Positions 16,886 to 41,780 of a stretch of 64,000 nucleotides of DNA are shown here, in pieces. The position numbers were made by a program, and so were the translations under genes. The DNA comes from Anaeromyxobacter diazotrophicus. GTDB lineage: Bacteria; Myxococcota; Myxococcia; Myxococcales; Anaeromyxobacteraceae. Numbering within the stretch: the first letter of the stretch is position 1; the number at the start of each line of letters is the position of its first letter. Under the pieces are notes generated by a model. The model was given only the letters and a program-made list of their open reading frames with translations, had not been told where the DNA came from and made no database searches. The stretch spans positions 434,001 through 498,000 of the forward strand of contig NZ_BJTG01000002.1 in the NCBI RefSeq assembly GCF_013340205.1. Reading direction: 5' to 3'.

Positions 16886-16888
16886 CCC

Positions 16889-18412: not shown

Positions 18413-18633
18413 GGGTCGAGGGCGGCCGCGCCGCCGCGCGGCGCTGCGGCAGAAAGCTGCCCACGCGCCGGCGGGCGCACAAGGCGGCGCTGGACCGCCT
18501 GGGGCCTCGGCGGCAGCGCTCGTCCCCTCCGGGAGGGCGGCCGCGGACCGCACCCGCGCCGGGTCGCCGGATGGTAACGTCGAGCCCCGCGCGAGCGCAG
18601 GTGGCGACGAGGAGCGGCGCGCGAGGAGGCCGC

Positions 18634-24262: not shown

Positions 24263-25711
<1,449 letters not shown>

Positions 25712-26310: not shown

Positions 26311-26877
26311 ATGCGCCGAATGACCCTGCTGCTGTCCCTTGCCGCAGCCGCCTGCGCCAGCACCACGAAGGGTGAGCGCGTCGCGACGCAGCCGCCCTCC
26401 GAGTACCGGATCGGGCGCGAGGACGTGCTCGAGATCGTGGTGTGGCACGAGCCGGAGCTCACCCGGGTGATGCCGGTGCGGCCCGACGGGTTCATCGCGC
26501 TGCCGCTGGCCGGCGAGGTCCAGGCGGCGGGGAAGACCCCGGCGGAGCTGCGCACCGCGCTGACGACCGCCCTCACGCCCTACGTCAAGGACGCCGCGGT
26601 GGCGGTGCTCGTCCGCGAGATCAACGGCCCCCGCTTCTCGGTCATGGGCGAGGTGACGCACGCGGGCACCTTCCCGCTGCGGGGCGCCATCTCGGTGACC
26701 CAGGCGCTCGCCACCGCCGGCGGCACCAACGAGTTCGCCGGGGACGAGGTGGTGTGGCTGCGCCAGAAGCCCGACGGGAAGCAGGAGAAGGTGCGGCTCT
26801 CGCTCAAGGAGCTGGTCCACGGCGACGTCGAGGGCGCGCTCTGGCTCTCGCCGGGCGACGTGCTCTACGTTCCGTGA
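26311..26877 (+). CDS. Polysaccharide export (OPX/Wza-family) outer-membrane lipoprotein, short form
   Basis: A 188-residue lipoprotein (lipobox LAAAAC, Cys15). It has a poly-export (PES) domain beginning YRIGREDVLEIVVWHEPELT and containing RPDGFIALPLAGEVQAAGKTPAEL. One SLBB domain follows (PRFSVMGEVTHAGTFPL ... ALATAGGTNEFA) and the protein ends VLYVP. It lacks the C-terminal amphipathic helix and extra SLBB repeats that let E. coli Wza form its own outer-membrane pore, so it belongs to the minimal OPX class, which is known in Myxococcus to work with a separate outer-membrane barrel. The following gene encodes such a barrel. Confidence 0.92.
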   Translation: MRRMTLLLSLAAAACASTTKGERVATQPPSEYRIGREDVLEIVVWHEPELTRVMPVRPDGFIALPLAGEVQAAGKTPAELRTALTTALTPYVKDAAVAVLVREINGPRFSVMGEVTHAGTFPLRGAISVTQALATAGGTNEFAGDEVVWLRQKPDGKQEKVRLSLKELVHGDVEGALWLSPGDVLYVP

Positions 26878-26929
26878 ACCGGTTGCCCGCCGGCGCGGCG
26901 TGGGCCGGGGGCCGAGGAGGAGACGGGCG

Positions 26930-28060
26930 ATGGGGACGCGACGGCTCGGCCAGGCGGTCTTGCTGGCCGCGGGGCTGTGCTCCGGAGCGCGGGCGGCGGC
27001 GAGCGTGCAGGTGGATCCCCTCGCCCGTCTCTCACTCGAGGGCGGCTACGACTCCAACGTGATGTACGACGGCCGCGGGGCCGGGGTGGGGATCCTCGCG
27101 CCCGACCTCGGGCTGCAGCTCCGCGACCACACCTGGAGCTTCGCCGCCGTGGCGGGCGGAGATCTCCTCGCGTACCCGTCGGCCGCGGTGGCCCGGAGCG
27201 CCCAGACGGTGTGGAACCAGCGCGGCAAGCTCGTGCTGCACCTCACCCCGAGCGCGCGCTTCAAGTTCGACGGCGACGCCACCGCGACCTACGCCTCCGA
27301 CCCGGTCGGCCTGGCGCGGCTCGGCATCTTCGGGGCGGGCTCGACCACCGGCCTCGTCGCGCGCGCCGGGCTGCGCGGTGCCTGGCGCCTCGACCACGAC
27401 TGGACGGTGGCGGGCACCCTCGCCGAGTACGTGGTGCGCTTCGGGGATGGGACCGGCTCCGCCTCGCACACGCCGGGCGTCGAGCTGGCGCGGAGGCTCG
27501 GGCACCGCCTCGACATGGGCGCCATCTACCGCTTCGACTACTTCCAGGCCTTGACGCCGGGTGCGGGTCACGCCACCGCGCACGAGCTGCAGTGGCTGCT
27601 GCGCTACCGCTGGACGCGGCACCTCACCCTCGAGCTGCAGGCGGGCCCCGCCTTCTGGAACCCCGCCGCGGGCGGGACGCAGGTCCTGCCGCAGGCGCTG
27701 GCCCAGCTCCTCGGCGCGAGCCGCGCCGGCGACGTGCGGCTCACCCTGAAGCACGGCGTCGGCCTCGGCATCTTCGGAACGCCCGGGCTCTTCGACTCCG
27801 CGGAGGGCGCCTTCACCTGGAAGATCACCCGGAAGGTCCACCTGCACGCCGACGGGGGCCTGTGGCGCAGCGGCGACATCCCCTGGGGGGCGAACGGCGC
27901 GACGGGGTACGGCCTGGAAGGAGAGCTTGCGTATTTCTTTTTGCGCAACGTGAAGGTGGCGCTCGCTGGGTCCCGGTTCGCGCGGCTGGACGCAGGCACT
28001 AGCTTGTACGACCGGAACATCGTCGGGCTCCGGGTCGGCTGGGAGCTGGAGCATCGTTAG
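26930..28060 (+). CDS. Outer-membrane beta-barrel protein of the EPS secretion system (Wzp-like)
   Basis: A 376-residue protein with a signal peptide (about residues 1-23, ending ARA). It is a long series of alternating beta strands (LARLSLEGGYDSNVMYDG, LGLQLRDHTWSFAAVAGGDLLAY, YRWTRHLTLELQAGPAFW and others) and ends in a strand GLRVGWELEHR. Strand number is compatible with a 16-18-stranded barrel. Its place right after the short OPX gene fits the barrel partners (WzpX/WzpS/WzpB) of Myxococcus polysaccharide pathways. The ATG at 26930 follows GAGGAGGAGA. It is 9 bp upstream of the Wzz gene. Confidence 0.82.
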   Translation: MGTRRLGQAVLLAAGLCSGARAAASVQVDPLARLSLEGGYDSNVMYDGRGAGVGILAPDLGLQLRDHTWSFAAVAGGDLLAYPSAAVARSAQTVWNQRGKLVLHLTPSARFKFDGDATATYASDPVGLARLGIFGAGSTTGLVARAGLRGAWRLDHDWTVAGTLAEYVVRFGDGTGSASHTPGVELARRLGHRLDMGAIYRFDYFQALTPGAGHATAHELQWLLRYRWTRHLTLELQAGPAFWNPAAGGTQVLPQALAQLLGASRAGDVRLTLKHGVGLGIFGTPGLFDSAEGAFTWKITRKVHLHADGGLWRSGDIPWGANGATGYGLEGELAYFFLRNVKVALAGSRFARLDAGTSLYDRNIVGLRVGWELEHR

Positions 28061-28069
28061 GGGGGCGGG

Positions 28070-29443
28070 ATGGAGAGGACCTACACGCTGCGCGAGATGG
28101 TCGAGGCCGTGCGGCGCCGCCGGTGGCTGGCGCTCGGGGTGGCCGCGGTCGTGCTGATCATCGGAGCCGTCGCCATCGTGGGGACTCCGGACGAGTACCG
28201 GGCCGACTCGGTGATGCAGATCGAGCCGCACCAGGTGCCGCACGACTTCTTCCCGACCTCCGTGACCTCGTTCGACGAGCGCATGCGCACCCTCAAGCAC
28301 GGCGTGCTCGCCCGCCCGGTGCTGGAGCGGGTGCTGGCCGAGACCGACTTCGTCCCCGGCTGGAAGGCGCACCCGGACGACGCCATCGAGAAGCTCCGCC
28401 GCGCGGTCGAGGTGCGCCTGGAGGGCGAGGTGGCGGGCGGGCCGCCGTCGCTGCTCTTCGTGGTGGAGGTGCGCGGGGCGGATCGGGCCAAGGTGGCCAA
28501 GGCCGCCGACCTCATCCCCCGCTACTACGCCGAGCTGACGCGCCAGGTGATGCAGGACCAGGCGAAGAACCTGGCCGGCGCGCTGCAGGCGCAGCTGGAC
28601 GAGGTCTCGCAGCGCCTGGCCGGCGAGGAGCGCAAGCTCGTCGCGTTCAAGGCCGAGCACGCGCTGGAGGTGCCGGAGGCGAGCGAGGCCAACCAGCGCG
28701 CGGCCGCCACGCTCATGGCGCAGATCGACCTGCGCCTCGGCACGCTGGCGGACGCGAGGCGCCGCCGCACCGCCGCCTTCGCGGCCATCCCGGAGGCGTT
28801 CAGCACCGCCGGGCTCGCCGGCGGCAACGCCGAGGACGTGCTGCGGCGGCTCGAGACGGCGCGCGCCATGTACGGCGCCGAGCACCCCGAGGTGAAGCGG
28901 CTTGAGCGCCAGTACCAGGTGGTGACGGCGCGCAGCGGCGACTCGCAGAAGACGTTCGTGAAGGAGCGCGTCGACGCGCAGGTGGCCCGCATCGACGACG
29001 AGATCCGGACCAACGAGGCGGAGGTGGCGCGCCTGCAGAAGGAGCTCGGGGCCGTGCAGCGGCGGCTGGACGCGGCGCCGCAGCTCGGCGAGCAGTACCG
29101 GATCCTCGCGCGCGACTACGAGACCCTGCGCGGGAAGTACGCGAGCACGCTCTCGCGGGCGGCCGACGCGCGCGCCGCCGAGGCGCTCCTGGCGGCCGAC
29201 GCCTCCGGGCTGTTCCGGGTGGTGCAGGCCGCGGTCGCGCCGAGCCGCCCGGCCGGGCCGAACCGGGTCAACCTGGCGCTGGTGGCTCTGGCGGCGGCGC
29301 TCGGCGCCGCGCTGCTGGCGGTCGCGGCCGGCGAGTACTTCGACACCACCCTGCGCGGGCCGCAGGACGCGAGCGCCTTCGGCGTGCCGGTGCTGGCCGC
29401 CATCCCCCGCATCGGGCCGCGCCGCGCCGGCGAGCACGCCTGA
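28070..29443 (+). CDS. Wzz-family chain-length determinant (polysaccharide co-polymerase without kinase domain)
   Basis: A 457-residue inner-membrane protein. The N-terminal Wzz segment YTLREMVEAVRRRRWLA precedes TM1 (about residues 18-38). The periplasmic region has long coiled coils (about 155-380) and a conserved YRILARDYETLRGKYASTLSRA (GNVR-like) element, followed by a PxxP motif region (APSRPAGPNRVN) and TM2 at about 405-430. It ends soon after TM2, so the kinase is the separate next gene. It would set polymer length together with the Wzy-like protein at 40473. Confidence 0.9.
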   Translation: MERTYTLREMVEAVRRRRWLALGVAAVVLIIGAVAIVGTPDEYRADSVMQIEPHQVPHDFFPTSVTSFDERMRTLKHGVLARPVLERVLAETDFVPGWKAHPDDAIEKLRRAVEVRLEGEVAGGPPSLLFVVEVRGADRAKVAKAADLIPRYYAELTRQVMQDQAKNLAGALQAQLDEVSQRLAGEERKLVAFKAEHALEVPEASEANQRAAATLMAQIDLRLGTLADARRRRTAAFAAIPEAFSTAGLAGGNAEDVLRRLETARAMYGAEHPEVKRLERQYQVVTARSGDSQKTFVKERVDAQVARIDDEIRTNEAEVARLQKELGAVQRRLDAAPQLGEQYRILARDYETLRGKYASTLSRAADARAAEALLAADASGLFRVVQAAVAPSRPAGPNRVNLALVALAAALGAALLAVAAGEYFDTTLRGPQDASAFGVPVLAAIPRIGPRRAGEHA

Positions 29444-29469
29444 GACTGGGAGAAGGAGAGGAGAACCCC

Positions 29470-30171
29470 ATGCCCGTCCCCGCCGAGAACCGCCTCACCG
29501 CGCCCCCGCCGCCGCAGGAGGACGGCCGCCTGCTGGCGCTGGCGCGCCCCGACTCCATGGCGGCCGAGCAGTACCGGGTGCTGCTGGCCCGGCTCGACCG
29601 GATGAAGGCCGCCCGGCCCATGCGCGTGGTCGCGGTCACCTCCTGCGCCCGGGGCGAGGGCCGCAGCATGACCGCCGCCAACCTCGCGCTCACCGCCGCC
29701 CGCGAGGGCCGCGAGGTGGCGCTCGTCGAGTGCGACCTGCGCCGGCCCAGCCTGGCCGCGCTGTTCGAGCTCGAGCCGCACGGCGGGCTGGCCGGGGTGG
29801 TGCAGGGCGAGGTCGAGCTGCAGCAGGCGCTGGCGCGCGTCGACGGGGTGATGGTGCTGTGCGCGGGCGAGGCGCGCGACCCGGCGGCGCTCCTCCGCCA
29901 CCCGCGCCTCGCCATGACGCTCGACACGCTGCGGGCCTCCTTCCCGCTGGTGGTGCTCGACGCCCCGCCGGCGCTGGCGCTCTCCGACGCGGCGCGCCTG
30001 GAGGGCACCGTCGACGGCATGCTGCTGGTGGTGAAGGCGGGCGAGACGCCGCGCGAGCTGGTGCGGCTGGCGGTGGAGGCGCTCGGGGATCGGCTGCTCG
30101 GGATCGTCCTCAACGGCGTGGAGGAGCCAGGGTACGCGCGCTACCTCCGCCACGAGGCTTCGGCCCCGTAG
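29470..30171 (+). CDS. BY-kinase-like cytoplasmic ATPase with degenerate Walker A
   Basis: A 233-residue CpsD/Wze-like protein: LARPDSMAAEQYRVL (interaction helix), then a P-loop region, then LVECDLRRPSLAALF (Walker A') and LVVLDAPP (Walker B). The P-loop reads SCARGEGRS, with Arg65 where active kinases have the ATP-binding lysine, and Walker A' has Glu for the usual first Asp. Only two tyrosines (GYARY) are near the end, not a cluster. It may be a poor or inactive kinase acting as a regulatory subunit of the Wzz protein encoded 26 bp upstream. GGAGAAGGAGAGGAG precedes the ATG. Confidence 0.88.
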   Translation: MPVPAENRLTAPPPPQEDGRLLALARPDSMAAEQYRVLLARLDRMKAARPMRVVAVTSCARGEGRSMTAANLALTAAREGREVALVECDLRRPSLAALFELEPHGGLAGVVQGEVELQQALARVDGVMVLCAGEARDPAALLRHPRLAMTLDTLRASFPLVVLDAPPALALSDAARLEGTVDGMLLVVKAGETPRELVRLAVEALGDRLLGIVLNGVEEPGYARYLRHEASAP

Positions 30172-30179
30172 GCGGCGAC

Positions 30180-31568
30180 GTGGTCCGGGTCTTCAACCAC
30201 TGGTTCTCGGGCCGCAAGGCGGCCTTCTTCATCGCCGAGGAGAGCGCGCTCGTGCTGGCGCTGCTGGCGGGGATGTCGCTCGGGCCGGTGGCGCACCCGC
30301 TCGTCACCCGCGAGCACGGGCTCGGGGCCGCCTTCCTGCGCGCGGCCATCGCCGCGCTCGCCTTCGCGGGGGCGCTCTACTTCGGCGACCTCTACGATCT
30401 CCGCTCGGCCGCCCGCGACCGGTTCGACGGCCGGCGGCTGCTGCGGGCGCTCGGGGTGGCGGTGGTGGTGCTGGCCCTGGCGTACCTCGCCCTGCCGGTG
30501 GTGGTGCCCATGGGGTGGATCCCGCGCCGCTCGCTGGTGCTGGCGGCGGCGGGCGGGGCGCTGGCGGTGATCGCCGTCCGGGCCGCCATGCCGGCGGTGG
30601 TCGGCGCCCCGACCCGCGTGCTCGTGCTCGGCACCGGCGCCCGGGCGCGGAAGCTCGCGCGCGACGTCGAGACCGAGGCCGACGGGCTGTTCGAGGTGGT
30701 GGGGTTCGCGGACTCGAACGGCGGCTCGCGCTCGGCCGACCCCGCGCTGCCCTTCGCCGGCGCCGTCGACCAGCTGGCGCGGCGGCTCCGGGCCGAGGTG
30801 GTGGTGGTGGCGGTGGAGGACCGGCGCGCCGGCCTGCCGGTGGACGCGCTCCTCGCCTGCCGCACCCACGGCGTGCAGGTCATGAGCGACGTGGCGTTCG
30901 CGGAGGCGACGCTGAAGCGCATCCCGCTCGACCTCCTCCGGCCGAGCGCGCTCATCTTCGACGAGGGGTTCCGGGCGGGCCCGGTCCGGCGGGCGGTGAA
31001 GCGCGCGGTGGACCTCGGCCTGGCGGTGGGCATGCTGCTCGCCGCCGGCCCGGTCATGCTGCTCACCGCCGCCGCGGTCGCGGCCGCCGACGGGCGCCCC
31101 ATCCTCTACTCGCAGGAGCGCACCGGGGGCGGCGGCCGCCCGTACCGCATCTGGAAGTTCCGCACCATGCGCCGCGACGCCGAGGCGACCGGCGCGGTCT
31201 GGGCCACCGAGGCGGATCCCCGCGTGCTGCCGGTCGGCCGGCTGCTGCGCCGGACGCGGCTCGACGAGCTGCCGCAGCTCTGGAACGTGCTGCGCGGCGA
31301 GATGAGCTTCGTCGGCCCGCGCCCGGAGCGGCCCGTCTTCCTCGACGAGCTCAAGCGGCGCTGGCCGCTCTTCACGCTGCGCGAGCTCGTGAAGCCGGGG
31401 CTCACCGGCTGGGCGCAGCTCAAGTACCGCTACGGCTCCACCATGGAGGAGCAGGCCCGCAAGCTCGAGTACGACCTCTACTACGTGAAGAACACGTCGC
31501 TGTTCCTCGACCTCGTCTGCCTCTTCCACACCGCGAAGATCGTGCTGACGGGGCGGGGGGCGAAGTGA
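30180..31568 (+). CDS. Polyprenyl-phosphate sugar phosphotransferase (WbaP/EpsB-type)
   Basis: A 462-residue polytopic initiating transferase. Four N-terminal TM helices (about residues 15-140) precede a CoA-binding-like Rossmann segment (RVLVLGTGARARKLARDVE), and the catalytic C-terminal third begins at the re-entrant helix RAVKRAVDLGLAVGMLLAAGPV. The catalytic third has YSQERTGGGGRPYRIWKFRTM, the Asp-Glu pair in [24 protein letters not shown] and PGLTGWAQLKYRYG. It loads the first sugar-phosphate onto undecaprenyl phosphate for this EPS. The sequence pattern recalls the EPS-associated (TIGR03013-like) group. The GTG at 30180 is 8 bp after the kinase stop. Confidence 0.92.
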   Translation: MVRVFNHWFSGRKAAFFIAEESALVLALLAGMSLGPVAHPLVTREHGLGAAFLRAAIAALAFAGALYFGDLYDLRSAARDRFDGRRLLRALGVAVVVLALAYLALPVVVPMGWIPRRSLVLAAAGGALAVIAVRAAMPAVVGAPTRVLVLGTGARARKLARDVETEADGLFEVVGFADSNGGSRSADPALPFAGAVDQLARRLRAEVVVVAVEDRRAGLPVDALLACRTHGVQVMSDVAFAEATLKRIPLDLLRPSALIFDEGFRAGPVRRAVKRAVDLGLAVGMLLAAGPVMLLTAAAVAAADGRPILYSQERTGGGGRPYRIWKFRTMRRDAEATGAVWATEADPRVLPVGRLLRRTRLDELPQLWNVLRGEMSFVGPRPERPVFLDELKRRWPLFTLRELVKPGLTGWAQLKYRYGSTMEEQARKLEYDLYYVKNTSLFLDLVCLFHTAKIVLTGRGAK

Positions 31569-31616
31569 TACCCGCCGCCGGCGCGGGAACCTTGACCGGG
31601 CGGAGAGGAGCGCGTC

Positions 31617-33467
31617 ATGTGCGGCATCGTCGGCTACATCGGCGGGCGTGAGGCGGCGCCCTTCCTGGTCGAGGGCCTGCGGCGCCTCGAGTACCGGGGC
31701 TACGACAGCGCCGGGGCGGCCTTCCTGGTGGGCGGGCGGGTCGTCATCAACAAGGCCACCGGCCGCGTCTCGGCCCTGGCGGGCGCGCTGCTCGGCGCCG
31801 GGCACGGCGCGCGCACCGGCATCGGCCACACCCGCTGGGCGACGCACGGCAGGCCGAGCGACCGGAACGCCCACCCCCACCCCGACTGCCAGGGGCGGAT
31901 CGCGGTGGTGCACAACGGCATCGTCGAGAACTACCGCGAGCTGAAGGAGGAGCTCGCGGCGGCCGGGCACCGCTTCGCCTCGGAGACGGACACCGAGGTG
32001 CTGGCCCACCTGGTCGAGTCGCAGCGGAACGGCGACGGGCTGGCGCAGGCGGTCCGGCGCGCGCTGCGGCGGGTCGAGGGCACCTTCGCGCTGGCGGTCC
32101 TCTCCGCCGACGACCCGGAGGTCCTGATCGCGGCGCGGCACGGCTCCCCGCTCATCGTCGGCGAGGGCGAGGGGGAGCGGCTGCTCGCCTCGGACATCCC
32201 GGCGCTCCTGCCCTTCACCCGCGATCAGCTCGTGCTCGACGACGGCGAGGTGGCGATCCTCACCCGCGACGGCGTCGAGGTCTCGCGGCTCCTCGACGGC
32301 GCGCGCACGGTCCGCCACGCCGCCCGGGTGGAGTGGGATCTCGCGACCGCCGAGAAGGGCGGGGAGCCCCACTTCATGCGGAAGGAGATCCTGGAGCAGC
32401 CGCGGGCCCTGCGCGACACGCTCTGCGGCCGCGTCGGGCTCGACGGGCTGCCGCGGCTCGAGGAGCTCGCGCTGGGGGCCGGCGAGGCCCGGGCGCTCGA
32501 GCACGTCGAGCTCATCGCCTGCGGCACGAGCTGGCACGCGGGCCTGGTCGCGACGCGCCACCTCGCCGAGCTGGCGCGGCTGCGCGCCTCGGCCGAGGTC
32601 GCGAGCGAGTACCGCTACCGCCCGGCGCTGCCGCTCGGCGCGGAGGGCGGCGGCAAGGCGCTGGTGGTGGCGGTGAGCCAGTCGGGCGAGACGGCGGACA
32701 CCCTGGCGGCGATGCGCGCCGCGGCGGCCGGCGGCGCCCGCCCGGTGGCGGTGGTGAACGTGGTGGGGAGCTCGATCGCCCGCGAGGCCGAGGGCGTCCT
32801 CTACACGCGGGCCGGGCCCGAGATCTCGGTGGCGTCCACCAAGGCGTTCTCGACCCAGGTGGCGACCCTGTTCCTCCTCGCGGCGCACCTCGGCCGGCTG
32901 CGGGGCACGCTCTCGGAGTCGGGCGCGCGCGAGCTCCTGGCCGCCCTGGGCCGCGTGCCCGACCAGCTCGAGGCGATGCTGCCCGAGGTGGCCGCGCAGG
33001 CCCGGGCGCTCGCGCCGCGTCTGCTCGACAAGCGCGGCGCCCTCTACCTCGGGCGCGGCTACGGGTTCCCGCTGGCGCTGGAGGGGGCGCTGAAGCTGAA
33101 GGAGATCACCTACCTCCACGCGGACGGCTACCCCGCCGGCGAGATGAAGCACGGGCCCATCGCGCTGGTCGGCCCGCAGACGCTGGTGGTGGTGGTCGCG
33201 CCGCAGGACCGGCTCCACGCCAAGACGCTCTCCAACCTCGAGGAGGTGAAGGCGCGGGACGGGTTCGTGGTGGCGATCGGAACCGAGGGCGACCGCGAGC
33301 TGGCGCGCCTCGCCGACGCGGTGTTCTGGCTGCCGCCGGCGCCGGAGCCGCTCAACCCGCTGCTCGCCGCCGCCCCCCTGCAGCTCCTCGCCTACGAGCT
33401 CTCGGTCGCGCTCGGGCGCGACGTGGACCAGCCGCGCAACCTCGCCAAGTCCGTGACGGTCGAATGA
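31617..33467 (+). CDS. glmS: Glutamine-fructose-6-phosphate aminotransferase (isomerizing)
   Basis: A 616-residue GlmS making glucosamine-6-phosphate, the committed precursor of UDP-GlcNAc. The glutaminase N-terminus MCGIVGYIGGREAAPFL has the catalytic Cys2; RWATHGRPSDRNAHPH follows. Two SIS isomerase domains follow (ACGTSWHAGLVATRHLAE; SQSGETADTL; EISVASTKAFSTQ; LEGALKLKEITYLHADGYPAGEMKHGPIAL), ending DQPRNLAKSVTVE as in all GlmS. Its position inside an EPS operon suggests dedicated amino-sugar supply. No glmS ribozyme-like leader fits in the 48-bp gap upstream. The stop overlaps the next start by 4 bp. Confidence 0.97.
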   Translation: MCGIVGYIGGREAAPFLVEGLRRLEYRGYDSAGAAFLVGGRVVINKATGRVSALAGALLGAGHGARTGIGHTRWATHGRPSDRNAHPHPDCQGRIAVVHNGIVENYRELKEELAAAGHRFASETDTEVLAHLVESQRNGDGLAQAVRRALRRVEGTFALAVLSADDPEVLIAARHGSPLIVGEGEGERLLASDIPALLPFTRDQLVLDDGEVAILTRDGVEVSRLLDGARTVRHAARVEWDLATAEKGGEPHFMRKEILEQPRALRDTLCGRVGLDGLPRLEELALGAGEARALEHVELIACGTSWHAGLVATRHLAELARLRASAEVASEYRYRPALPLGAEGGGKALVVAVSQSGETADTLAAMRAAAAGGARPVAVVNVVGSSIAREAEGVLYTRAGPEISVASTKAFSTQVATLFLLAAHLGRLRGTLSESGARELLAALGRVPDQLEAMLPEVAAQARALAPRLLDKRGALYLGRGYGFPLALEGALKLKEITYLHADGYPAGEMKHGPIALVGPQTLVVVVAPQDRLHAKTLSNLEEVKARDGFVVAIGTEGDRELARLADAVFWLPPAPEPLNPLLAAAPLQLLAYELSVALGRDVDQPRNLAKSVTVE

Positions 33468-34618
33468 TCTCGCCGGAGGTCCAGGGCGCGCCGGCGCGGG
33501 CCGGCGGACCGGCGCCCGGCGCCGCGCCCGGCGGTTACCGGGTAGAGGAGGTCGCCGGCGCCAGCGGCTTCGCCGCGCTGCGGGGGGCGTGGGACGCGCT
33601 CCTGGCCTCGGGGCCGGTGGACGCGCCGTACCACCGGCACGCGTGGCACGCCGCCTGGCTGGAGGCGTTCGCGCCCGGCGCCGAGCTGACCGTGCTGGTG
33701 GCGCGCGACCGCGCCGGGCGCGCCGCCGGCCTGGCGCCGCTCATCGCCTCGCGCCGCCGCGGGCTGACCGTGCTCTCCGCCCCCGCCAACGACCACACGC
33801 CGCGCGTGGAGTGGGTGCTGGGCGCCGACCCGGCCGGCGCCGTCGAGGCGCTGTGGGCGCACCTGCGCGACCGCGTGCGCTGGGACGTGCTGGTGCTCCG
33901 CGACCTGCCGCGGGCCGGCCCCACCTCGCTTCACCTGGAGGCGGCCGCCCGCGCCGACCGGCACCTCACCGGCCGCTGGGAGTCGCTCCGGTCGCCCTTC
34001 CTCGCCCTGGGGGGGGCGCCCCGCGAGGCGCGGCTCCCCGCCAAGTTCACGGCCAACCTCCGGCGGCGCCTGCGGAAGCTCTCCGAGGCGGGCGCGGTCG
34101 CCTGCCGCCGGGTGGACGGCGGCGAAGAGGTGGAGGACTACCTGGAGCGCTTCATGGCCCTGGAGGCGGCGGGCTGGAAGGGGGCGCGCGGCAGCGCCAT
34201 CGCCCGCGACCCGCGCGCGGTCGCCTTCTACCGGGCGCTGGCCCGCGCCGGGGCGCGCGAGGGGTGGCTCGCGCTGCGCGCGCTCGAGCTCGACGGCCGT
34301 CCCGTGGCGATGCACTTCGGCCTCCGTTACCGGGGCGTGTACGCGCTCCCGAAGCCGGCCTACGACGAGGCGCTGGGCGCCTGCTCGCCCGGGCAGCTCC
34401 TCCTGCGCGAGGTGCTCGCCGAATGCGAGGCGGCGGGCCTGGCCGAGCTCGACTTCCTGGGGCCGGACATGCCGTGGAAGCGCGACTGGGCCCCCGATCA
34501 CCGGCCGCACGACTGGCTGTACGTCTACCGCCCCGGGGTGGCCGGGGCGGCGCTGCACGCGGTGAAGCACCGGCTGAAGCCGCTGGCGAGGGAGGTGGTG
34601 GAATGGTGGCGACGCTGA
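33464..34618 (+). CDS. GNAT-fold acyltransferase (CelD/BcsL/FemAB-like)
   Basis: A 384-residue protein with the two-lobed FemAB/CelD arrangement: YHRHAWHAAWLEAFAPGAELTVLVARD at the N-terminus, then KFTANLRRRLRKLSEAG, LEAAGWKGARGSAIARD and LELDGRPVAMHFGLRYRGVYALPKPAYDEAL ... SPGQLLLREVLAECEAAG. Proteins of this family occur in cellulose and EPS loci and are thought to acylate sugars or amino sugars. It starts in the glmS stop (ATGA) and overlaps the PLP enzyme gene by 16 bp, so translation of the three is probably coupled. Confidence 0.8.
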   Translation: MISPEVQGAPARAGGPAPGAAPGGYRVEEVAGASGFAALRGAWDALLASGPVDAPYHRHAWHAAWLEAFAPGAELTVLVARDRAGRAAGLAPLIASRRRGLTVLSAPANDHTPRVEWVLGADPAGAVEALWAHLRDRVRWDVLVLRDLPRAGPTSLHLEAAARADRHLTGRWESLRSPFLALGGAPREARLPAKFTANLRRRLRKLSEAGAVACRRVDGGEEVEDYLERFMALEAAGWKGARGSAIARDPRAVAFYRALARAGAREGWLALRALELDGRPVAMHFGLRYRGVYALPKPAYDEALGACSPGQLLLREVLAECEAAGLAELDFLGPDMPWKRDWAPDHRPHDWLYVYRPGVAGAALHAVKHRLKPLAREVVEWWRR

Positions 34619-35790
34619 CCGAGACCGCGCGCAGCCCCGGGCTGCTCGCCGCGCGGCCGCCCGGCCGGCGGGTGCTGACCGCCCTGCCGACGCTCTCGCC
34701 GCGGCTGCTCGTCCCGCGGCTCCGGGCCGGACCCGCGCCGTTCCCGCTCGGCGGCGCCGAGGTGCGGCGCTACTACTTCGCCCGCAACGCGGTGTGGGAG
34801 GCGGCGCGCCTGCTGGGGCTCGCCGGTCACGAGGTCCTCGTCCCCGCCTACCACCACGGCGTGGAGGTCGAGGCGCTGGTCGCGGCCGGGGCCGTCCCGC
34901 GGTTCGTCCGCGTGGACGCGCGGATGCGCCTCGATCTCGAGCACCTCGAGCAGAGCGTCGGGCCGCGCACCCGGGCGCTCTACGTCATCCACTACCTCGG
35001 CTTCCCGCAGCCCATGGACGCGCTGCTCGCGCTCGCCCGGCGGCGCGGGCTGGCGGTGCTCGAAGACTGCGCGCTGGCGCTGCTCTCCCGGGACGGCGCG
35101 GAGCCGCTGGGGGCGCGCGGAGACGTGGGCATCTTCTGCCTCTACAAGTCGCTGCCGGTGCCGAACGGCGGGATCCTCGCCCTGAACCGCCCGCTCGACG
35201 CGGCGGGTCCGGCCCGGGCGGCGCCGCTCGCGAGCACGCTCTCGCACGCCACCGGCAGCCTGCTCGCGCACCTCGCGCGCCGCGGCGGGCCCGCCGGCGA
35301 GGCGGTGCGGGAGGGGCTGCGGCGGTCGCAGCGCGCGGTCCGGGCGGCCCTCCACGTCGGGCCGCTCGCCACCGGCACGATGCACTTCGACCCCGCCGCG
35401 GCCGACGTCGGCATGAGCGCGCTCACCCGCGTCATCCTCGAGAACGTGGACTTCGAGGAAGCGGTCCAGGCGCGCCGGCGCAACTGGTTCCTGCTCTTCG
35501 CCCGGCTGCGCGAGCTGGCCCCGCCGGTGCAGCTCGAGCTCCCGCCCGGCGTCTGCCCGCTGTTCTACCCGCTCCTGGTCGAGGACAAGGCCGGCGTGGC
35601 GGAGCGGCTCGCCGCGCGCGGGATCGAGACGGTCGAGTTCTGGAACACCGGCCACCCCGCCTGCGACGAGGCCGGCTTCCCCGAGGTGGCGGCCCTGCGC
35701 CGGCGCGTGCTGGAGCTGCCGCTGCACCAGGATCTCGACCCGGACGACATGGCCTACCTGGCCGCGGCGGTCGAGGAGGCGCTCCCGTGA
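34603..35790 (+). CDS. DegT/DnrJ-like PLP-dependent aminotransferase
   Basis: A 395-residue fold-type I PLP enzyme: FARNAVWEAARLLGL, VLVPAYHHGVEVEALVAAGAVPRFVRVD, ALYVIHYLGFPQPMDAL, LEDCALAL and FCLYKSLPVPNGGIL with the probable Schiff-base Lys at residue 182. It differs from classical sugar aminotransferases in having no Gly-rich TTGGGG element after the lysine, and resembles the DegT-like proteins found beside GNAT genes in polysaccharide loci. It is sandwiched between two GNAT/FemAB genes with overlapping stops and starts. A role in making an amino sugar or the amino donor used by the neighbours is inferred. Confidence 0.82.
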   Translation: MVATLTETARSPGLLAARPPGRRVLTALPTLSPRLLVPRLRAGPAPFPLGGAEVRRYYFARNAVWEAARLLGLAGHEVLVPAYHHGVEVEALVAAGAVPRFVRVDARMRLDLEHLEQSVGPRTRALYVIHYLGFPQPMDALLALARRRGLAVLEDCALALLSRDGAEPLGARGDVGIFCLYKSLPVPNGGILALNRPLDAAGPARAAPLASTLSHATGSLLAHLARRGGPAGEAVREGLRRSQRAVRAALHVGPLATGTMHFDPAAADVGMSALTRVILENVDFEEAVQARRRNWFLLFARLRELAPPVQLELPPGVCPLFYPLLVEDKAGVAERLAARGIETVEFWNTGHPACDEAGFPEVAALRRRVLELPLHQDLDPDDMAYLAAAVEEALP

Positions 35791-37028
35791 ACCCCGCGCG
35801 CAACCAGGTCCTGCCGCCGGTGCGGGTGGTGGAGAGCGACGACCCGGCGCGGCTGGCCGCGCTCCGGCCGGAGTGGGACGAGCTGTTCCTCGCGCGCGCC
35901 GGCGGGAACCCGTTCCTCTCCTGGGAGTGGCAGTTCACGTTCTGGCGCACCTTCGCGCAGCGCCGCCCGCTCTGGATCCTGGAGGCGCGCGATCGCGGCG
36001 AGCGGCTGGCCGGGCTGCTGGTCCTCTCGGCGCGCCCGGCGCTGGGGGTCGCCCGGCGCTGGGGGCTCCTCACGAACGGGCTCACCGGGACCGACGCGCT
36101 GGACGTCCTGGCGCGCCCGGGCTTCGACGCGCCGGTGCGCGAGGCCTTCGCCCGGGCGCTGGGGGCCGCCCTGCCGCGCTGGGACTTCCTCGATCTCGAG
36201 GACCTGCCCTGCGGCAGCGCGACCGTGGCGGCGTTCCGCGCCGCGCTGCGCCCGCGCGGGGTGAAGGCGACGGTCGAGCCGCGCTTCGTCTGTCCGGGGT
36301 TCGCCCTCCGCGGCACCTTCGCCGCGCACCTGGCGGGCTTCCGGCGGCGCGACACCTTCCTGCGCCGCCGGCGCTGGCTCGAGCGGCAGCCCGGCTACCG
36401 GATCGCGGTGGCGTCCTCGCCCGAGGAGGCCGGGCCGGCCATGGAGGACTTCCTGCGCCTGCACCACCTGCGCTGGGACCCGGAGGGCGGCTCGGACGGG
36501 ATCCCGCGCGGCCTGGTGGAGGAGTTCCACCGCGAGCTGGCCCCGCTGCTGGCGGCGCGCGGGTGGCTGCGGCTCTACCGGCTGGAGGTGGAGGGGCGGT
36601 CCATCGCCGCCGTGTACGGGATCGAGCTCATGCGGCGCTTCTCGTACTACCAGTCCGGCATGGACCCGGCCTGGGCGGCGCGCAGCCCGGGGCTCGTCCT
36701 GCTCGGCCGCACCGTCGAGGACGCGTACGCGCGCGGCCTCTCCGACTACGACTTCCTGCGCGGGACCGAGCCGCACAAGCTCGACTGGGCCGCCGACCGG
36801 CGCGAGACCTGCGCGCTCAGGCTGCGCGCGCCCGGGCTCCGGCCGGAGGCGGAGGCCGCGGCCGAGGAGGTCTTCCGCCGGGCGCGCGGCGCCGCCCGGG
36901 CGCTCGCGCCGGCGGGGGTGTGGACGGCGCTGCGGCGGGTGCGGCGGGAGCTGGCGGCGAACGGCCTCGCCGGCGCGGCAGGGCGGGCGGGCGGTGGCGA
37001 GGCCGAGGCGCGGGAGGACGCGACATGA
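35787..37028 (+). CDS. GNAT-fold acyltransferase (CelD/BcsL-like)
   Basis: A 413-residue protein related in architecture to the one at 33464: NPFLSWEWQFTFWRTFA, ILEARDRGERLAGLLVL, RRDTFLRRRRWLERQPGYRI, FLRLHHLRWDPEGGSDGIP, LEVEGRSIAAVYGIELMRRFSYYQSGMDPAWAARSPG and SDYDFLRGTEPHKLDWA. The last motif is typical of the CelD/BcsL acetyltransferase family. GTG start with 4-bp overlap to the previous gene; ATGA overlap to the deacetylase gene. Acyl donor and acceptor are unknown; the deacetylase next door suggests that N-acyl groups on the polymer are exchanged. Confidence 0.82.
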   Translation: MNPARNQVLPPVRVVESDDPARLAALRPEWDELFLARAGGNPFLSWEWQFTFWRTFAQRRPLWILEARDRGERLAGLLVLSARPALGVARRWGLLTNGLTGTDALDVLARPGFDAPVREAFARALGAALPRWDFLDLEDLPCGSATVAAFRAALRPRGVKATVEPRFVCPGFALRGTFAAHLAGFRRRDTFLRRRRWLERQPGYRIAVASSPEEAGPAMEDFLRLHHLRWDPEGGSDGIPRGLVEEFHRELAPLLAARGWLRLYRLEVEGRSIAAVYGIELMRRFSYYQSGMDPAWAARSPGLVLLGRTVEDAYARGLSDYDFLRGTEPHKLDWAADRRETCALRLRAPGLRPEAEAAAEEVFRRARGAARALAPAGVWTALRRVRRELAANGLAGAAGRAGGGEAEAREDAT

Positions 37029-38206
37029 CCGGCGAGCGGGCGGACAACAGCGCGACCTGGGTGGTGCGGCGCGCGGCCAAGGCGGCGGTGGCGGGGGCGC
37101 TCTGCGCGGCCGGGGCGCGCTGGCTGGTCCGCTCGGTGGCGCGGCGCGCCGCCGGCGGGCCGCGCGTGCTCATCCTGTCCTATCACCTGCCCACCCTCGA
37201 GCTGGCGGAGCCGTCCCGGCGGGTGCTCCCGTCGCTGCTCGTCTCGCGGCAGACGCTGCGCCGCCAGCTGCAGCAGCTGGCCCGCGAGCGCGAGATCGTG
37301 ACCCTCGACCAGGCGCGCGCGGTGCTGGCCGAGCCGGCGGCGGGCGCGGCGGCGCGCGGGCCGGACGTGGCGGTGGTCACCTTCGACGACGGCTACGCCG
37401 GCGTGCACGAGGTGGCGCTCCCGGTGCTGCGCGAGCTGCGCCTCCCGGCCGCGGTCTACGTCCCCACCGGCTACGTCGGGACCGCGCGGCGGCTGCTGCA
37501 CGATCGGCTGTTCGCCTCGCTCACCGAGCTCCAGCGGCGCAGGCTGCTGCCGGAGGCGGCGGGCCTCGCCCCCGAGCTGCAGGCGCTGCTCGACGCCTGC
37601 GCCGGCGGGGTGCCGGGCGCCACGCTCGATCGCCTCATCGCGCGCCTCCCCCACGACCGGCTGCGGGCCATCGCCGAGGCGCTGGAGCGGCGGCTCGGGA
37701 TGCGCGAGCAGGATCTGCCGCCCGAGACGCGGATCATGGGCTGGGACGAGCTCCGCGCGCTGGAGGCGGGCGGGGTGGAGGTGGGCGGTCACTCGGTCGA
37801 GCACGTCGCGCTGGTGAACGTGCCGCTCGCCCAGGCGCGGGCCGAGATCCGCGGCTGCCGCGAGCACCTCGCGGAGCGCCTGGGGGAGCGCGCGCGGCAC
37901 TTCGCCTACCCGAACGGCTACCACAGCCCCAAGATCCGCGCGGCCGTGGCCGAGGCGGGGTTCGCCACCGCCGCGACCACCGAGGACGTCGAGAACCGCC
38001 GCGGGGGCGACCTCTTCGCGCTGAAGCGGAAGACGATCTGGGAGAACAGCACGCTCGGCGCGACGCGCTACAGCGCCGCGGTGGCCGCCTGCAACCTCGA
38101 CGGCGTTTTCGAGGCGCTGGGGTGGCAGCGCCCGGTGACCGGCGAGCGTCCTGACCGGCCGGAGGAGGGGCCGGTCGCGCGCGCGGCGGAGCGGGCGGCG
38201 GGGTGA
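37025..38206 (+). CDS. Polysaccharide deacetylase (NodB/CE4 family)
   Basis: A 393-residue protein with a hydrophobic N-terminal helix (about residues 15-32; membrane anchor or uncleaved signal). The CE4 motifs are TFDDGY (Asp121, Asp122), GGHSVEH (His256 and His260, the metal ligands) and RHFAYPNGYHSP. Between the first two motifs there is an insertion of about 90 residues (LFASLTELQRRRLL...), as in the EPS-associated deacetylases. It removes N-acetyl groups from GlcNAc-type residues. It follows the GNAT gene with a 4-bp overlap and precedes a glycosyltransferase gene with another 4-bp overlap. Confidence 0.92.
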   Translation: MTGERADNSATWVVRRAAKAAVAGALCAAGARWLVRSVARRAAGGPRVLILSYHLPTLELAEPSRRVLPSLLVSRQTLRRQLQQLAREREIVTLDQARAVLAEPAAGAAARGPDVAVVTFDDGYAGVHEVALPVLRELRLPAAVYVPTGYVGTARRLLHDRLFASLTELQRRRLLPEAAGLAPELQALLDACAGGVPGATLDRLIARLPHDRLRAIAEALERRLGMREQDLPPETRIMGWDELRALEAGGVEVGGHSVEHVALVNVPLAQARAEIRGCREHLAERLGERARHFAYPNGYHSPKIRAAVAEAGFATAATTEDVENRRGGDLFALKRKTIWENSTLGATRYSAAVAACNLDGVFEALGWQRPVTGERPDRPEEGPVARAAERAAG

Positions 38207-39300
38207 GCGCGCCGCGCATCGCCCTGGTCGGCGACTACCCGCCCCCGCACGGCGGGGTGGCCGTGCACGTCGCGGCGCTGGCCCGGGCGCTCCGCGCCGC
38301 CGGCCTGGACGTGCGGGTGCTCGACATCGGGCGGGGCGACCACCGCGCCCAGGGGGTGGTGCCCGCGCGCGGCGCGCTGCGGTTCGCCGCCGCGCTGGCC
38401 GCGGCCGCGGCCGAGCGGCGGCTCGTCCACGTCCACACCGGCGGCGCGAACCCGAGGAGCTGGACGGTCGCCGCGGCCGCGGCCCGGGCCCGGCTGCCCG
38501 GGTCGCCGCCGGCGGTCCTCACGCTCCACTCCGGCCTCTGCCCCGCCTACCTGGCGCGGAGCGCCGCCGCGCGGCGGACGGCGCGGGGCGCCTGCGCCGC
38601 GTTCGGCCAGGTGCTGGCGGTGAGCGCGCCCATCGCCGAGGCGCTCCACGGCTGCGGGGTCCCCGCCCACCGGGTGAAGGTGCTGCCCGCCTTCGTGGCC
38701 GCCGCGCTCGTCCCCGGCGCTCCGCCGCGCGGCTTCGCCGGCCTGCGGGCGGCGCGGGCGCCCGTCTTCGCGGCCGCGCTGGCGCCGGGACCGACCTACG
38801 GCGAGGACCTCCTGCTCCCCGCCTTCGCGGCGCTGCGGGCACGGCAGCCGCGGGCGGCGCTGGCGGTCTTCGGGCCGGGCACCGAGCGCGGGGCGCTGGC
38901 GTCGGCGGGGCTCGGCGGGGGGGTGCTGGCGCTCGGCGAGCTCGACCACCGCGGCGCGCTGGCGGTCATCGCCGGGGCGGACGTGTTCGTGCGGCCCACC
39001 CGCGCGGACGGTGACGCGCTGTCGGTGCGCGAGGCGCTCGCGCTGGGCCGGCGGGTGGTGGCGAGCGCGGTCGGGCATCGGCCCGCCGGGTGCCTGCTCT
39101 TCCCGGCCGGCGACGCCGCCGCGCTGGCGGCGCGCCTGGCCGAGGCCGCCGCGCTCCCCGCGCCGCCTCCGCCGGGCGGCGTCGCGCCCGCGCGCGATCC
39201 GTTCCTGGACCTCCTCGAGCTGTACCGGGCGCTCGCCCGCCCGCCGTCCCTGCCGAGGGATTCCGCCGCTCCGGCGGAGGCCCCACCTTCGTGGCCGTGA
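38203..39300 (+). CDS. GT4-family glycosyltransferase
   Basis: A 365-residue GT-B protein. The N-terminus IALVGDYPPPHGGVAVHVAALARAL is typical of GT4 enzymes, with VHVHTGGANPRSW and LTLHSGLCPAYL following. The C-terminal half has FAAALAPGPTYGEDLLLPAFAAL, ALGELDHRGALAVIAGADVFVRPTRADGDALSVREALALG and VVASAVGHRPAGCLLFPAGDAAAL. The EX7E-like motif is relaxed (DALSVREALALG). GTG start overlapping the deacetylase stop; the next gene starts within its last codons. Confidence 0.84.
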   Translation: MSAPRIALVGDYPPPHGGVAVHVAALARALRAAGLDVRVLDIGRGDHRAQGVVPARGALRFAAALAAAAAERRLVHVHTGGANPRSWTVAAAAARARLPGSPPAVLTLHSGLCPAYLARSAAARRTARGACAAFGQVLAVSAPIAEALHGCGVPAHRVKVLPAFVAAALVPGAPPRGFAGLRAARAPVFAAALAPGPTYGEDLLLPAFAALRARQPRAALAVFGPGTERGALASAGLGGGVLALGELDHRGALAVIAGADVFVRPTRADGDALSVREALALGRRVVASAVGHRPAGCLLFPAGDAAALAARLAEAAALPAPPPPGGVAPARDPFLDLLELYRALARPPSLPRDSAAPAEAPPSWP

Positions 39301-40463
39301 CCCCCGTGCGCGCGCTCTCCGGCACCGACATCGTCTGCTTCTCGAACGACTGGGCCGGCGACCCGCTCTCGAAGACGCACCTCATGCGGATCCTCGCGCG
39401 CGAGAACCGCGTCCTGTGGGTGGACTCGCTGGGGCACCGCGCGCCGCGCGCCGACGCGCGCGACCTGCGGCGCGCGCTCGGGAAGCTCCGCTCGGCGGCG
39501 GGCGGGCTGCGCGAGGTGGCGCCCGGGCTGCACGTGCTCACCCCCCTCTACGTGCCCGGCTACGCGAGCGCGGCGGTGCGGCGGGCGAGCCAGGCGCTGG
39601 TGCGGCTCCAGGTGCTCCGCGCGATGCGCCGCCTCGGGCTGGCGCACCCGGTGAGCTGGTCGTTCCTGCCCAGCGCGGCGGGGGTGGCCGGGACGCTGGG
39701 CGAGGCGCTCGTCGTCTACCACGTGGTGGACGAGTTCTCCGCCTTCAGCGACGCCGACGCCCGGGTCCCCGAGCTGGAGCGCGAGCTGCTCGCGCGGGCG
39801 GACCTGGTCCTCGCCAGCTCGGAGCCGCTCCTCGCGGCCAAGTCCGCCCTGCACCCGCGCGTGCGCCTGGTGCGGCACGGGGTCGACCACCGCCACTTCG
39901 CCCGCGCGCTCGACCCCGCCACGCGCGTCCCGGACGACCTGGCGCGGCTGCCGCGGCCGGTGATCGGCTTCTTCGGGCTCCTGGCGGACTGGATCGACCT
40001 CGGGCTCGTGCGCGCGGTGGCCGACGCCTGGCCGGCGGCCTCGGTGGTCCTGATCGGCCGGACCGCGGCGCCGCTCGACGCGCTGCGCGGGGCGCCCAAC
40101 GTCCACCTCCTGGGCCACCGCCCCTACGCGGACCTCCCCGGCTACTGCCGCGGCTTCGACGTCGCGCTGACGCCCTTCCGGCTGAACGCGCTGGCCCGCG
40201 CCGCGAACCCGCTCAAGGCGCGCGAGTACGTGGCGGCGGGGCTGCCCAACGTCTGCACCGACCTCCCGGAGCTGCGGGCGGCGCCGGGCTGCACGGTGGC
40301 GCGCAGCCGCGGCGAGTTCCTGGCGGCGGTGGGACGCGCGCTCGCCGAGGGCGGGCCGCGCCGCGAGCGCTCGGAGCTGGTGCGGGGCGAGTCGTGGGAG
40401 GTGCGGGTCGAGGAGATCCGCGCCCACGTGGGGGAGCTGCTCGACGGCCGGCGGGCGGCGTGA
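39291..40463 (+). CDS. Glycosyltransferase (GT-B fold, family 1/4 type)
   Basis: A 390-residue protein: TDIVCFSNDWAGDPLSKTHLMRILARENRVLWVDSLG at the start, VVYHVVDEFSAFSD, LVLASSEPLLAAKSALHPRVRLVRHGVDHRHFARAL, PVIGFFGLLADWIDLGLVRAVAD and DVALTPFRLNALARAANPLKAREYVAAGLP. This pattern is shared by family-1 glycosyltransferases found in EPS-exosortase-type loci. The GTG at 39291 has GGCGGAGG about 12 bp upstream; a GTG at 39297 with a 4-bp overlap is also possible. The O-antigen-ligase-type gene follows after 9 bp. Confidence 0.83.
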   Translation: MAVTPVRALSGTDIVCFSNDWAGDPLSKTHLMRILARENRVLWVDSLGHRAPRADARDLRRALGKLRSAAGGLREVAPGLHVLTPLYVPGYASAAVRRASQALVRLQVLRAMRRLGLAHPVSWSFLPSAAGVAGTLGEALVVYHVVDEFSAFSDADARVPELERELLARADLVLASSEPLLAAKSALHPRVRLVRHGVDHRHFARALDPATRVPDDLARLPRPVIGFFGLLADWIDLGLVRAVADAWPAASVVLIGRTAAPLDALRGAPNVHLLGHRPYADLPGYCRGFDVALTPFRLNALARAANPLKAREYVAAGLPNVCTDLPELRAAPGCTVARSRGEFLAAVGRALAEGGPRRERSELVRGESWEVRVEEIRAHVGELLDGRRAA

Positions 40464-40472
40464 GGGGGCCTC

Positions 40473-41780
40473 ATGCGCGGTGAGCTCGAGCTGGAGGCGT
40501 TCCTCCCCGCGGGCGACCGGCGCGCGGCCGGCCTCGCGCGCGCGAGCGAGCGGTGGGGCCGGCTCGCCTACGGCGCGGCCCTGGCGTTCCTGGTGAACCT
40601 GTACGCCAGCCCGGCGTTCTACTGGCCGGAGCTCTTCGAGCGCATGCGCCTCGGGGTGGTGACCTCGGCCGTGTGCGCGCTGGCGGTGCTCATGCGCCGG
40701 GTGACCTCCGGCGAGCGGCTCCGGCTGGGCGGTCCGGCGGCGGGGTTCCTCCTCGCCTACGCGGCGATGATCCCCCTGTCCCTCGCCTGGACCATCGCCC
40801 CGGAGCGCACCTGGGACGCCATCTTCGACATCGGCAAGCTGCTCGTGGTCTACGCGGCGCTGATCAACGCGCTCGACACGCCGGGCCGGGTCCGCGGGGC
40901 GCTCCTCGCCGGCGCGCTCGCCACCCTGGCGCCGTCGCTCGGCGGCATCCAGCGCTGGCTCGCCGGCGACGCGCTCATCGAGGGCTACCGCACCGCGTGG
41001 CGCGGCAACTACGCCGACCCGAACCGCCTGGCGATGGGCCTCGTGCTGTTCCTGCCCGCGGCGATCCTCCTCGCCGGCCAGGTGCGACGCCCCTGGCTCA
41101 AGGGGCTGCTCCTCTTCGCCGCCGCCGCGAACGTGGCCGCCATCGTCCTCACCTACTCGCGCTCCGGGACGGTGGCGCTGGTGGCCGCGCTCCTGCTCAC
41201 GTTCCTGCGCGGCCACGCCAAGGGGAAGGGGCTGGTGCTGGCGGGGCTGGCGCTGGTGGCGGTGGTGGCGCTCGCGCCGGAGAGCTTCTGGATGCGGCAG
41301 AGCACCATCGCCGAGTACGAGGACGACGCGTCGTTCCAGGGCCGCGAGCGTGCCTACACCATGCTGCAGGTGATCTTCCACGAGCGGCCCCTGAGCGGCG
41401 TCGGCGCCGGCGCGTTCCTGGAGGCGTGGACGCGGTACGCGCCGCTCAAGGCGCTCGGGCAGCGGCTCATCGCCCACAACCTCTTCATGGAGGTCCTGGG
41501 CGAGCTCGGGATCATCGCGCTGGCGCTCTTCGCGACGTACTGCGCGTGGCTGCTCTGGCGCCTGTGGAGCGTGGGGGGCGAGCGGGGTGGGGAGGGGGCC
41601 CGCGCGCTCTTCGCCGGCCTCGCCGGCTACCTCGTGTGCGAGCTCGTGAACGGCTACAGCCGCTCCTTCAACCTCTACGCCGCCTTCGGCCTGGCGGTGG
41701 CGGTGGTGGTCCAGGCGCGGCTGCGCCGCCGCCTCGCGGCCGGGGACGCGGGGCCGGCGCGGGCGGCGCGCGCGGCATGA
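40473..41780 (+). CDS. O-antigen ligase/polymerase (Wzy_C family)
   Basis: A 435-residue polytopic inner-membrane protein with about 10-11 TM helices. The family signatures are YADPNRLAMGLVLFLPAAI, VLTYSRSGTVAL, and the periplasmic loop with FQGRERAYTMLQVIFHERPLSGVGAGAF followed by AHNLFMEVLGELG. Such proteins either polymerise undecaprenyl-linked repeat units (Wzy) or ligate polymers to an acceptor (WaaL). With Wzz and OPX in the same operon, polymerase is the better choice. It is the only polymerase candidate in the window. ATG at 40473; ATGA overlap with the next gene. Confidence 0.87.
   Translation: MRGELELEAFLPAGDRRAAGLARASERWGRLAYGAALAFLVNLYASPAFYWPELFERMRLGVVTSAVCALAVLMRRVTSGERLRLGGPAAGFLLAYAAMIPLSLAWTIAPERTWDAIFDIGKLLVVYAALINALDTPGRVRGALLAGALATLAPSLGGIQRWLAGDALIEGYRTAWRGNYADPNRLAMGLVLFLPAAILLAGQVRRPWLKGLLLFAAAANVAAIVLTYSRSGTVALVAALLLTFLRGHAKGKGLVLAGLALVAVVALAPESFWMRQSTIAEYEDDASFQGRERAYTMLQVIFHERPLSGVGAGAFLEAWTRYAPLKALGQRLIAHNLFMEVLGELGIIALALFATYCAWLLWRLWSVGGERGGEGARALFAGLAGYLVCELVNGYSRSFNLYAAFGLAVAVVVQARLRRRLAAGDAGPARAARAA

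Follow-up and report, generated by a model that had tools for sequence, protein, structure and literature searches.

What do four overlapping genes that sit directly behind a glmS gene contribute to the polysaccharide whose export genes precede them? The question is raised by a 64,000-nucleotide stretch of the 4.83-Mb genome of Anaeromyxobacter diazotrophicus (contig NZ_BJTG01000002.1, positions 434,001 to 498,000; hereafter the window, in whose numbering all coordinates are given). Here, four plus-strand genes encode a tandem GNAT protein (G, 33464-34618, ATG start, 384 amino acids; PF13480, 119 bits), a DegT-fold pyridoxal phosphate (PLP) enzyme (H, 34603-35790, ATG start, 395 amino acids; PF01041, 89 bits), a second tandem GNAT protein (I, 35787-37028, GTG start, 413 amino acids; PF13480, 119 bits) and a CE4 N-deacetylase (D, 37025-38206, ATG start, 393 amino acids; PF01522, 75 bits). 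The Pfam scores, all well over cut-off, bear out the GNAT, DegT-like PLP enzyme, GNAT and CE4 assignments of an initial annotation of the sequence; the overlaps that it gave (16 bp for G/H, 4 bp for H/I and for I/D) agree exactly with ours, and the gene upstream is a bona fide glmS (31617-33467, plus strand; TIGR01135, 749 bits against a cut-off of 418), a second copy dedicated to the cluster. We find that this cassette is a real part of a known cluster type, that of the exo/MASC polysaccharide, a locus identity that the initial annotation missed together with the dedicated glmS paralogue and the possible role of the PLP enzyme.

Ahead of the cassette, the window has the exo/MASC order of an OPX protein, a Wzc protein lacking a kinase domain, a separate BY-kinase (BYK) and a polyisoprenyl-phosphate hexose-1-phosphate transferase (PHPT). 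In Myxococcus xanthus, the nine-gene locus MXAN_3225-3233 is reported to be strongly upregulated in sporulation, for which exo (MXAN_3227) is required (PMC2875238), MXAN_3225 and MXAN_3226 being described as the OPX and beta-barrel proteins of the MASC pathway (PMC9603273). The OPX-to-I genes of our Myxococcus loci are likewise nine and match MXAN_3225-3233 in number and kind. We take G, H and I to be ExoG, ExoH and ExoI of the M. xanthus pathway and D to be ExoL, a correspondence that gene context suggests for D; the slot names ExoF, ExoG, ExoH, ExoI, ExoL, ExoO and ExoP are used throughout as we presume them to apply.

Conservation of the gene order was assessed by scanning named genomes for the H family, which gave 127 candidate stretches and, from these, 71 loci (72 with the window); as H served as the query, every locus contains it by design, and close kin account for many of the Myxococcaceae loci among the 72. 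G, H and I stand together in 61 of the 72 loci (the window and 60 others), the remainder comprising four that run off the contig on one side, two with G but no I, four with neither neighbour and one reading H-G. The longer order OPX-barrel-Wzc-BYK-PHPT-[YvcK/GlmS]-G-H-I recurs across the named loci, other Myxococcus included, the M. xanthus locus itself showing G-H-I only, on a short contig; an H-family locus was also found in Anaeromyxobacter sp. RBG_16_69_14. Outside the Myxococcota, cassette loci occur in Wenzhouxiangella, Desulfuromonas, Candidatus Manganitrophus and one Acidobacteriota metagenome-assembled genome (MAG). Because the order thus recurs across the Myxococcota and a few other phyla, the cassette is more than a product of chance, and the conservation in relatives on which the initial annotation had made its reading depend is indeed observed.

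The deacetylase gene is less firmly placed, following I directly in 22 of the 72 loci, with the contig ending first in 15; in four it lies elsewhere, before G in L080, L084 and L095 and within a G-I-D-H order in L083. Its link to the cassette is seen more clearly genome-wide. Among 60 related genomes, taking as strong an H match above 240 bits or split over two contigs (as in one genome) and a D match above 180 bits, 41 hold both, one H only, two D only (both incomplete genomes) and 16 neither (Fisher test, 1.7e-11, uncorrected for kinship). Myxococcaceae carry D at a distance from H: in one genome it lies about 31 kb downstream, in a run that continues with a PF13440 flippase, a hexapeptide acyltransferase and a pair of glycosyltransferases sharing 50% and 57% identity with those that follow D in the window. 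From its gene content this block looks like that of ExoM, the flippase MXAN_3260; the names ExoM, ExoE and ExoN are taken from the literature.

Three further arrangements were noted. L080, L083, L084 and L095 (Archangium and others) form a rearranged second type (D-G-H-I, D-G-H or G-I-D-H), whose deacetylase is more distant. Two Myxococcaceae MAG loci (L092 and L099) have the genes from Wzc through PHPT, plus YvcK and a homologue of H (broken up in L092), but neither G nor I. Downstream of the cassette in L066 and L087, inspection by eye found products beginning like glutamine-dependent asparagine synthases (MCGI...).

The overlaps themselves tell less than the order. Four-base-pair overlaps also occur at both edges of the cassette (glmS/G, 33464-33467; D/downstream glycosyltransferase, 38203-38206), and purine-rich, Shine-Dalgarno-like stretches within the upstream gene precede the start codons of H, I and D, as read from the sequence. 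Overlap lengths vary in relatives, however (in most Myxococcaceae loci some 150-165 bp separate the H match from the I match), and were rejected as evidence on account of this differing match-to-match spacing. The translational coupling proposed by the initial annotation therefore stands as a local feature, the overlaps being present here but not conserved across relatives, and it is the gene order that constitutes the real signal.

The four products have no clear membrane span by hydropathy, which fits action on the cytosolic face. The catalytic set of D (D121, D122, H256 and H260) is intact, as it is in 19 of 19 relatives, with the TFDDG and HxxxH metal motifs in place, and profile comparison pairs D with structures of the PgaB and PdaA types. 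The structure model of H (pLDDT 89) has GDP-perosamine synthase (3bn1) as its best fold match (Z 33.0 over 313 residues), the best 50 matches spanning Z 29.8-33.0 and consisting of sugar aminotransferases of the DegT family together with a few related dehydratases. Invariant in 46 of 46 H proteins are the Schiff-base lysine K182, the aspartate D155 and, at 84-85, an HH pair that is unusual. Most DegT sugar aminotransferases carry His or Gln three residues after the PLP aspartate, whereas at this position (L158) the H family has Leu in 45 of 46 proteins and Gln in one. H is proposed to be an amine-installing aminotransferase.

G and I are paralogues over almost their whole length (hhalign probability 100%, E 5.9e-54). 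The structure model of G (pLDDT 91.7) is closest to FemX (Z 21.1 over 303 residues, root-mean-square deviation 3.9), Staphylococcus aureus FemX (Z 21.1) and FemA (Z 20.3), followed by the aminoacyl-tRNA-dependent synthases Sbb17/Sba18 (Z 19.5-19.6), MprF-type aminoacyl-lipid synthases (Z 16.4-17.8) and coenzyme A (CoA)-type tandem GNATs (Z at most 16.1); Foldseek TM-scores were modest among the matches listed, and the fold lists leave room for other families. The FemX-like fold was found for G, and I follows by homology to it. At the aligned site, the acetyl-CoA loop motif [RQ]xxGx[GA] is present in none of 40 G and none of 37 I proteins, a loose form of the pattern occurring elsewhere in the C-terminal half of 15 of 40 and 10 of 37, respectively. 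Towards the C terminus of the second domain, a lysine is invariant (K339 in 40 of 40 G proteins, K331 in 37 of 37 I proteins) and follows an aromatic residue as W-K in 39 of 40 G and Y-K in 35 of 37 I proteins. It was tentatively matched through the alignment ends, not by superposition, to the catalytic K305 of FemX, for which DhpH-C has the pair F328-K329; the same source reports that Orf11, also FemX-like, uses Gly-tRNA to glycylate streptothrisamine (PMC12945691). A sequence search of solved structures returned no FemX for G or I, giving weak RimI-type matches for G and none for I; it is the structure model that provides the FemX link. G is proposed to be an N-aminoacyl or N-acyl transferase.

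Taken together, the intact CE4 site, the two paralogous GNATs, the DegT-fold PLP enzyme, the conserved order and the co-occurrence, all from sequence and fold models, support a reading that we regard as an even call: the four genes would act as a sugar-modification module within a Wzx/Wzy cluster of exo/MASC type, in which D deacetylates, G and I aminoacylate and H adds an amine. PHPT would load an N-acetylhexosamine and glycosyltransferases would extend the lipid-linked repeat, from whose hexosamine D would remove the N-acetyl group on the cytosolic face. G and I would then place an aminoacyl group, glycine being the best guess, on the free amines, drawing on aminoacyl-tRNA as FemX does, while H, with PLP as cofactor, would furnish a keto-sugar precursor with a second amine, such that the two transferases would correspond to two acceptor sites, from the D and H amines. 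The linked GlmS would feed hexosamine synthesis, the repeat would be flipped, polymerised and exported through the OPX protein and barrel, and glycine on the chains could later bridge the coat. The deacetylation and re-acylation or aminoacylation put forward in the initial annotation fit the CE4 site of D, the co-occurrence of H and D and the FemX-type fold of G; its choice of glucosamine as the modified sugar found no support, and the M. xanthus spore coat is reported to be mainly N-acetylgalactosamine (PMC2875238). In its most specific form, the proposal makes ExoG and ExoI a glycyl-tRNA-dependent, FemX-like pair adding glycine, or a short glycine chain, to amines that ExoL has freed on a hexosamine-containing exopolysaccharide; ExoH would supply the second amine for attachment, and a dedicated ExoF (GlmR)/GlmS pair would feed hexosamine. 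This version is tentative and rather doubtful. The mechanism is put forward as a proposal that is new and open to test.

Several observations weigh against aminoacylation by this module. G and I of the window have no match to PF02388 (FemAB) at E values up to 10, the Manganitrophus G matching it below cut-off (E 0.0076), and for this reason we describe the two proteins as working like FemX rather than as FemABX members; a shared fold, moreover, does not establish their donor. A dedicated tRNA near the cassette was considered and rejected: no tRNA gene is linked to the cluster in the window, which has only a tRNA-Lys at 570-644, and the 71 loci yielded no clear linked tRNA gene but two doubtful calls. 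D does not directly follow I in 35 of the 72 loci where there is room to see it. No nucleoside-diphosphate (NDP)-sugar dehydratase was found in the flanks of the 71 loci by phmmer and a crude motif scan, which leaves the proposed keto-sugar of H without a linked source, and any model is at its weakest over the substrate of H. Lastly, because sporulation has not been observed in A. dehalogenans (PMC2330069), the polymer made here may be something other than the spore coat of N-acetylgalactosamine, glucose and glycine that an exo/MASC locus would be expected to produce, and the window organism could use this chemistry for a different coat or matrix.

A rival reading, which we consider possible though not probable, is a classical amino-sugar route in which H would transaminate an NDP-keto-sugar and G and I would be CoA-dependent N-acyltransferases, transferring acetyl or longer groups to the new and the D-freed amine with no tRNA involved. 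The DegT sugar-aminotransferase fold of H and its PF01041 match suit this route, as do the Pfam naming of G and I as GNAT acetyltransferases and the match of G to a tandem-GNAT glucosamine N-acetyltransferase (5kga, Z 15.7). Against it, the CoA-type tandem GNATs trail the FemX/FemA folds by 4-5 Z units, the aligned site lacks the CoA loop motif, and no linked dehydratase was found.

An unlikely alternative, which parts from aminoacylation of an exo/MASC polymer chiefly over biological role and less over chemistry, is that the module tunes the acetylation and charge of an adhesive exopolysaccharide with no spore-coat link, as HfsH and HfsK would for the Caulobacter holdfast. HfsK is reported to have FemX as its nearest structure and is proposed to acylate HfsH-exposed amines (PMC5362036), and both the A. 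dehalogenans report and the cassettes of Wenzhouxiangella and Candidatus Manganitrophus are in keeping with such a role; the window nonetheless retains the exo/MASC order and the sigma-54 site common to the Myxococcus loci. That four unrelated modification genes were loosely packed into one operon with no joint pathway is already disfavoured and very improbable since, common as overlaps are in dense high-GC operons and variable as their lengths are in relatives, G-H-I is kept in most loci, D co-occurs genome-wide and the set is kept even where its order is reshuffled.

The glmS slot looks like a dedicated hexosamine supply, given a GlmS clade of its own, linkage to YvcK and the precedent of Bacillus subtilis, where stimulation of GlmS by GlmR (YvcK) has been proposed (PMC7525490). 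The source genome has two glmS genes over the cut-off, one at C1:601452 and the cluster copy; YvcK, the ExoF-like protein, was not found in it, and the slot holds GlmS instead. Across 47 loci readable between PHPT and G, the slot is occupied by YvcK in 33 (in L038, for instance, TIGR01826 scores 324 bits against a cut-off of 196), by GlmS in two (the window and Manganitrophus) and by neither in 12. YvcK was detected in 24 of the 60 relatives, in 23 within about 4.1 kb of H, the exception (G035) adjoining glmS; all 24 genomes have a strong ExoH, and YvcK is found in none of the 18 genomes without ExoH. Two genomes (G028 and G034) have the run OPX...PHPT-YvcK-GlmS-G-H-I-D, complete except for a recognised barrel. 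In a tree of 22 GlmS proteins, the window copy groups with those of G028, G034 and G035 (support 100/99), apart from the housekeeping copies, and the Manganitrophus GlmS joins this clade at 82/84 on a long branch. Inside exo clusters or close to them, this GlmS lineage (the window copy, L122, L123 and L124) accompanies YvcK.

The remainder of the cluster, all on the plus strand, begins downstream of a gene for an NtrC-type sigma-54 activator (24263..25711; PF00158, 239 bits; response regulator, PF00072; AAA+ and Fis helix-turn-helix, PF02954), a candidate regulator of the cluster from its position just upstream. A sigma-54-type -24/-12 site (TGGCACGCGGCGTGC, 26221..26235) precedes the OPX gene, and 34 of 36 loci have such a site no more than 450 bp ahead of their OPX match, against a background of 0.06 per 450 bp. 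There follow a short ExoA/WzaS-like OPX export protein (26311..26877; PF02563, 84.6 bits, and SLBB), a 386-amino-acid candidate for the 18-strand outer-membrane beta-barrel porin ExoB/Wzp (26900..28060), assigned by position as it has no Pfam match, with weak homologues adjoining OPX in relatives, the ExoC-like Wzc-type co-polymerase without kinase domain (28070..29443; PF02706; TIGR03007, 152.6 bits), the ExoD-like stand-alone BY-kinase (29470..30171; TIGR01007/TIGR03018, 108 bits) and the ExoE-like PHPT (30168..31568, start codon uncertain; PF02397, 207 bits; TIGR03025 over cut-off). Beyond D lie a GT4 glycosyltransferase in the ExoO position (38203..39300; assigned by Pfam and 50% identical to the glycosyltransferase beside D in the Myxococcaceae locus L125), a glycosyltransferase in the ExoP position (39150..40463, start uncertain; 57% identical to an L125 gene), a Wzy/O-antigen-ligase-type polymerase (40473..41780; PF04932, 67 bits) and a further GT4 glycosyltransferase (41777..42973; PF13692, 137 bits). 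The genes of 26311-42973 do not include the Wzx flippase that would be expected of an exo/MASC cluster; a Wzx-like gene (PF13440, 16889-18682, minus strand) belongs to a neighbouring cluster.

That neighbour is a separate polysaccharide cluster with glycosyltransferases at 1610-18682. It contains the third GNAT/FemAB-like gene (5912-6952; PF13480, with a marginal PF02388 FemAB match of 24.3 bits against a cut-off of 24) that the initial annotation had attached to the theme of the cassette. We rejected this gene as a module member, as it lies more than 20 kb upstream in a cluster with its own LegC-type DegT aminotransferase (3310-4512), PF02719 dehydratase (7133-9133) and fused Wzc-kinase (9146-11398).

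The searched literature, outside which two key pathway papers fell, yielded no paper on the function of ExoG, ExoH or ExoI and no answer as to how glycine, reported in the M. xanthus spore coat (PMC9603273, PMC12288465), enters it. Were G and I tRNA-using aminoacyl enzymes, this long-known glycine could be explained, and cell-wall-style cross-link chemistry, of the kind that builds peptidoglycan bridges, would have moved to a polysaccharide of the outer coat. A GlmS lineage of its own, partnered by YvcK, further suggests that this type of cluster controls its hexosamine supply itself.

Among known systems, M. xanthus exoA-I and exoL-P come closest to the window, with the same OPX-barrel-Wzc-BYK-PHPT-x-G-H-I order (the barrel of the window being putative) and, in the Wzx-carrying block of Myxococcaceae, a deacetylase and two glycosyltransferases that match D and the two genes after it. 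The window cluster differs in being contiguous, like the MASC cluster reported for Anaeromyxobacter Fw109-5 (PMC7310880, Islam et al.), in having GlmS rather than YvcK in the ExoF slot, and in lacking Wzx and the hexapeptide acyltransferase. FemX and FemA share with G and I two GNAT domains and, putatively, the aromatic-Lys pair, and provide the nearest solved fold (Z 20-21), but G and I are 11-12% identical to them, fall under the PF02388 cut-off and stand in a polysaccharide context. H has the fold and Schiff-base lysine of DegT nucleotide-sugar aminotransferases such as 3bn1, to which it is 24% identical, with two fewer residues before the lysine as judged by eye from the alignment. The YvcK and GlmS genes of exo loci share a slot or adjoin, recalling the GlmR-GlmS pair of B. 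subtilis, yet are tied here to an export-polysaccharide cluster, their interaction being putative. For the pairing of a deacetylase with a FemX-like GNAT on an adhesin glycan, HfsH and HfsK of Caulobacter are the closest published analogue, although the available text of that source mentions no PLP enzyme alongside the pair (PMC5362036).

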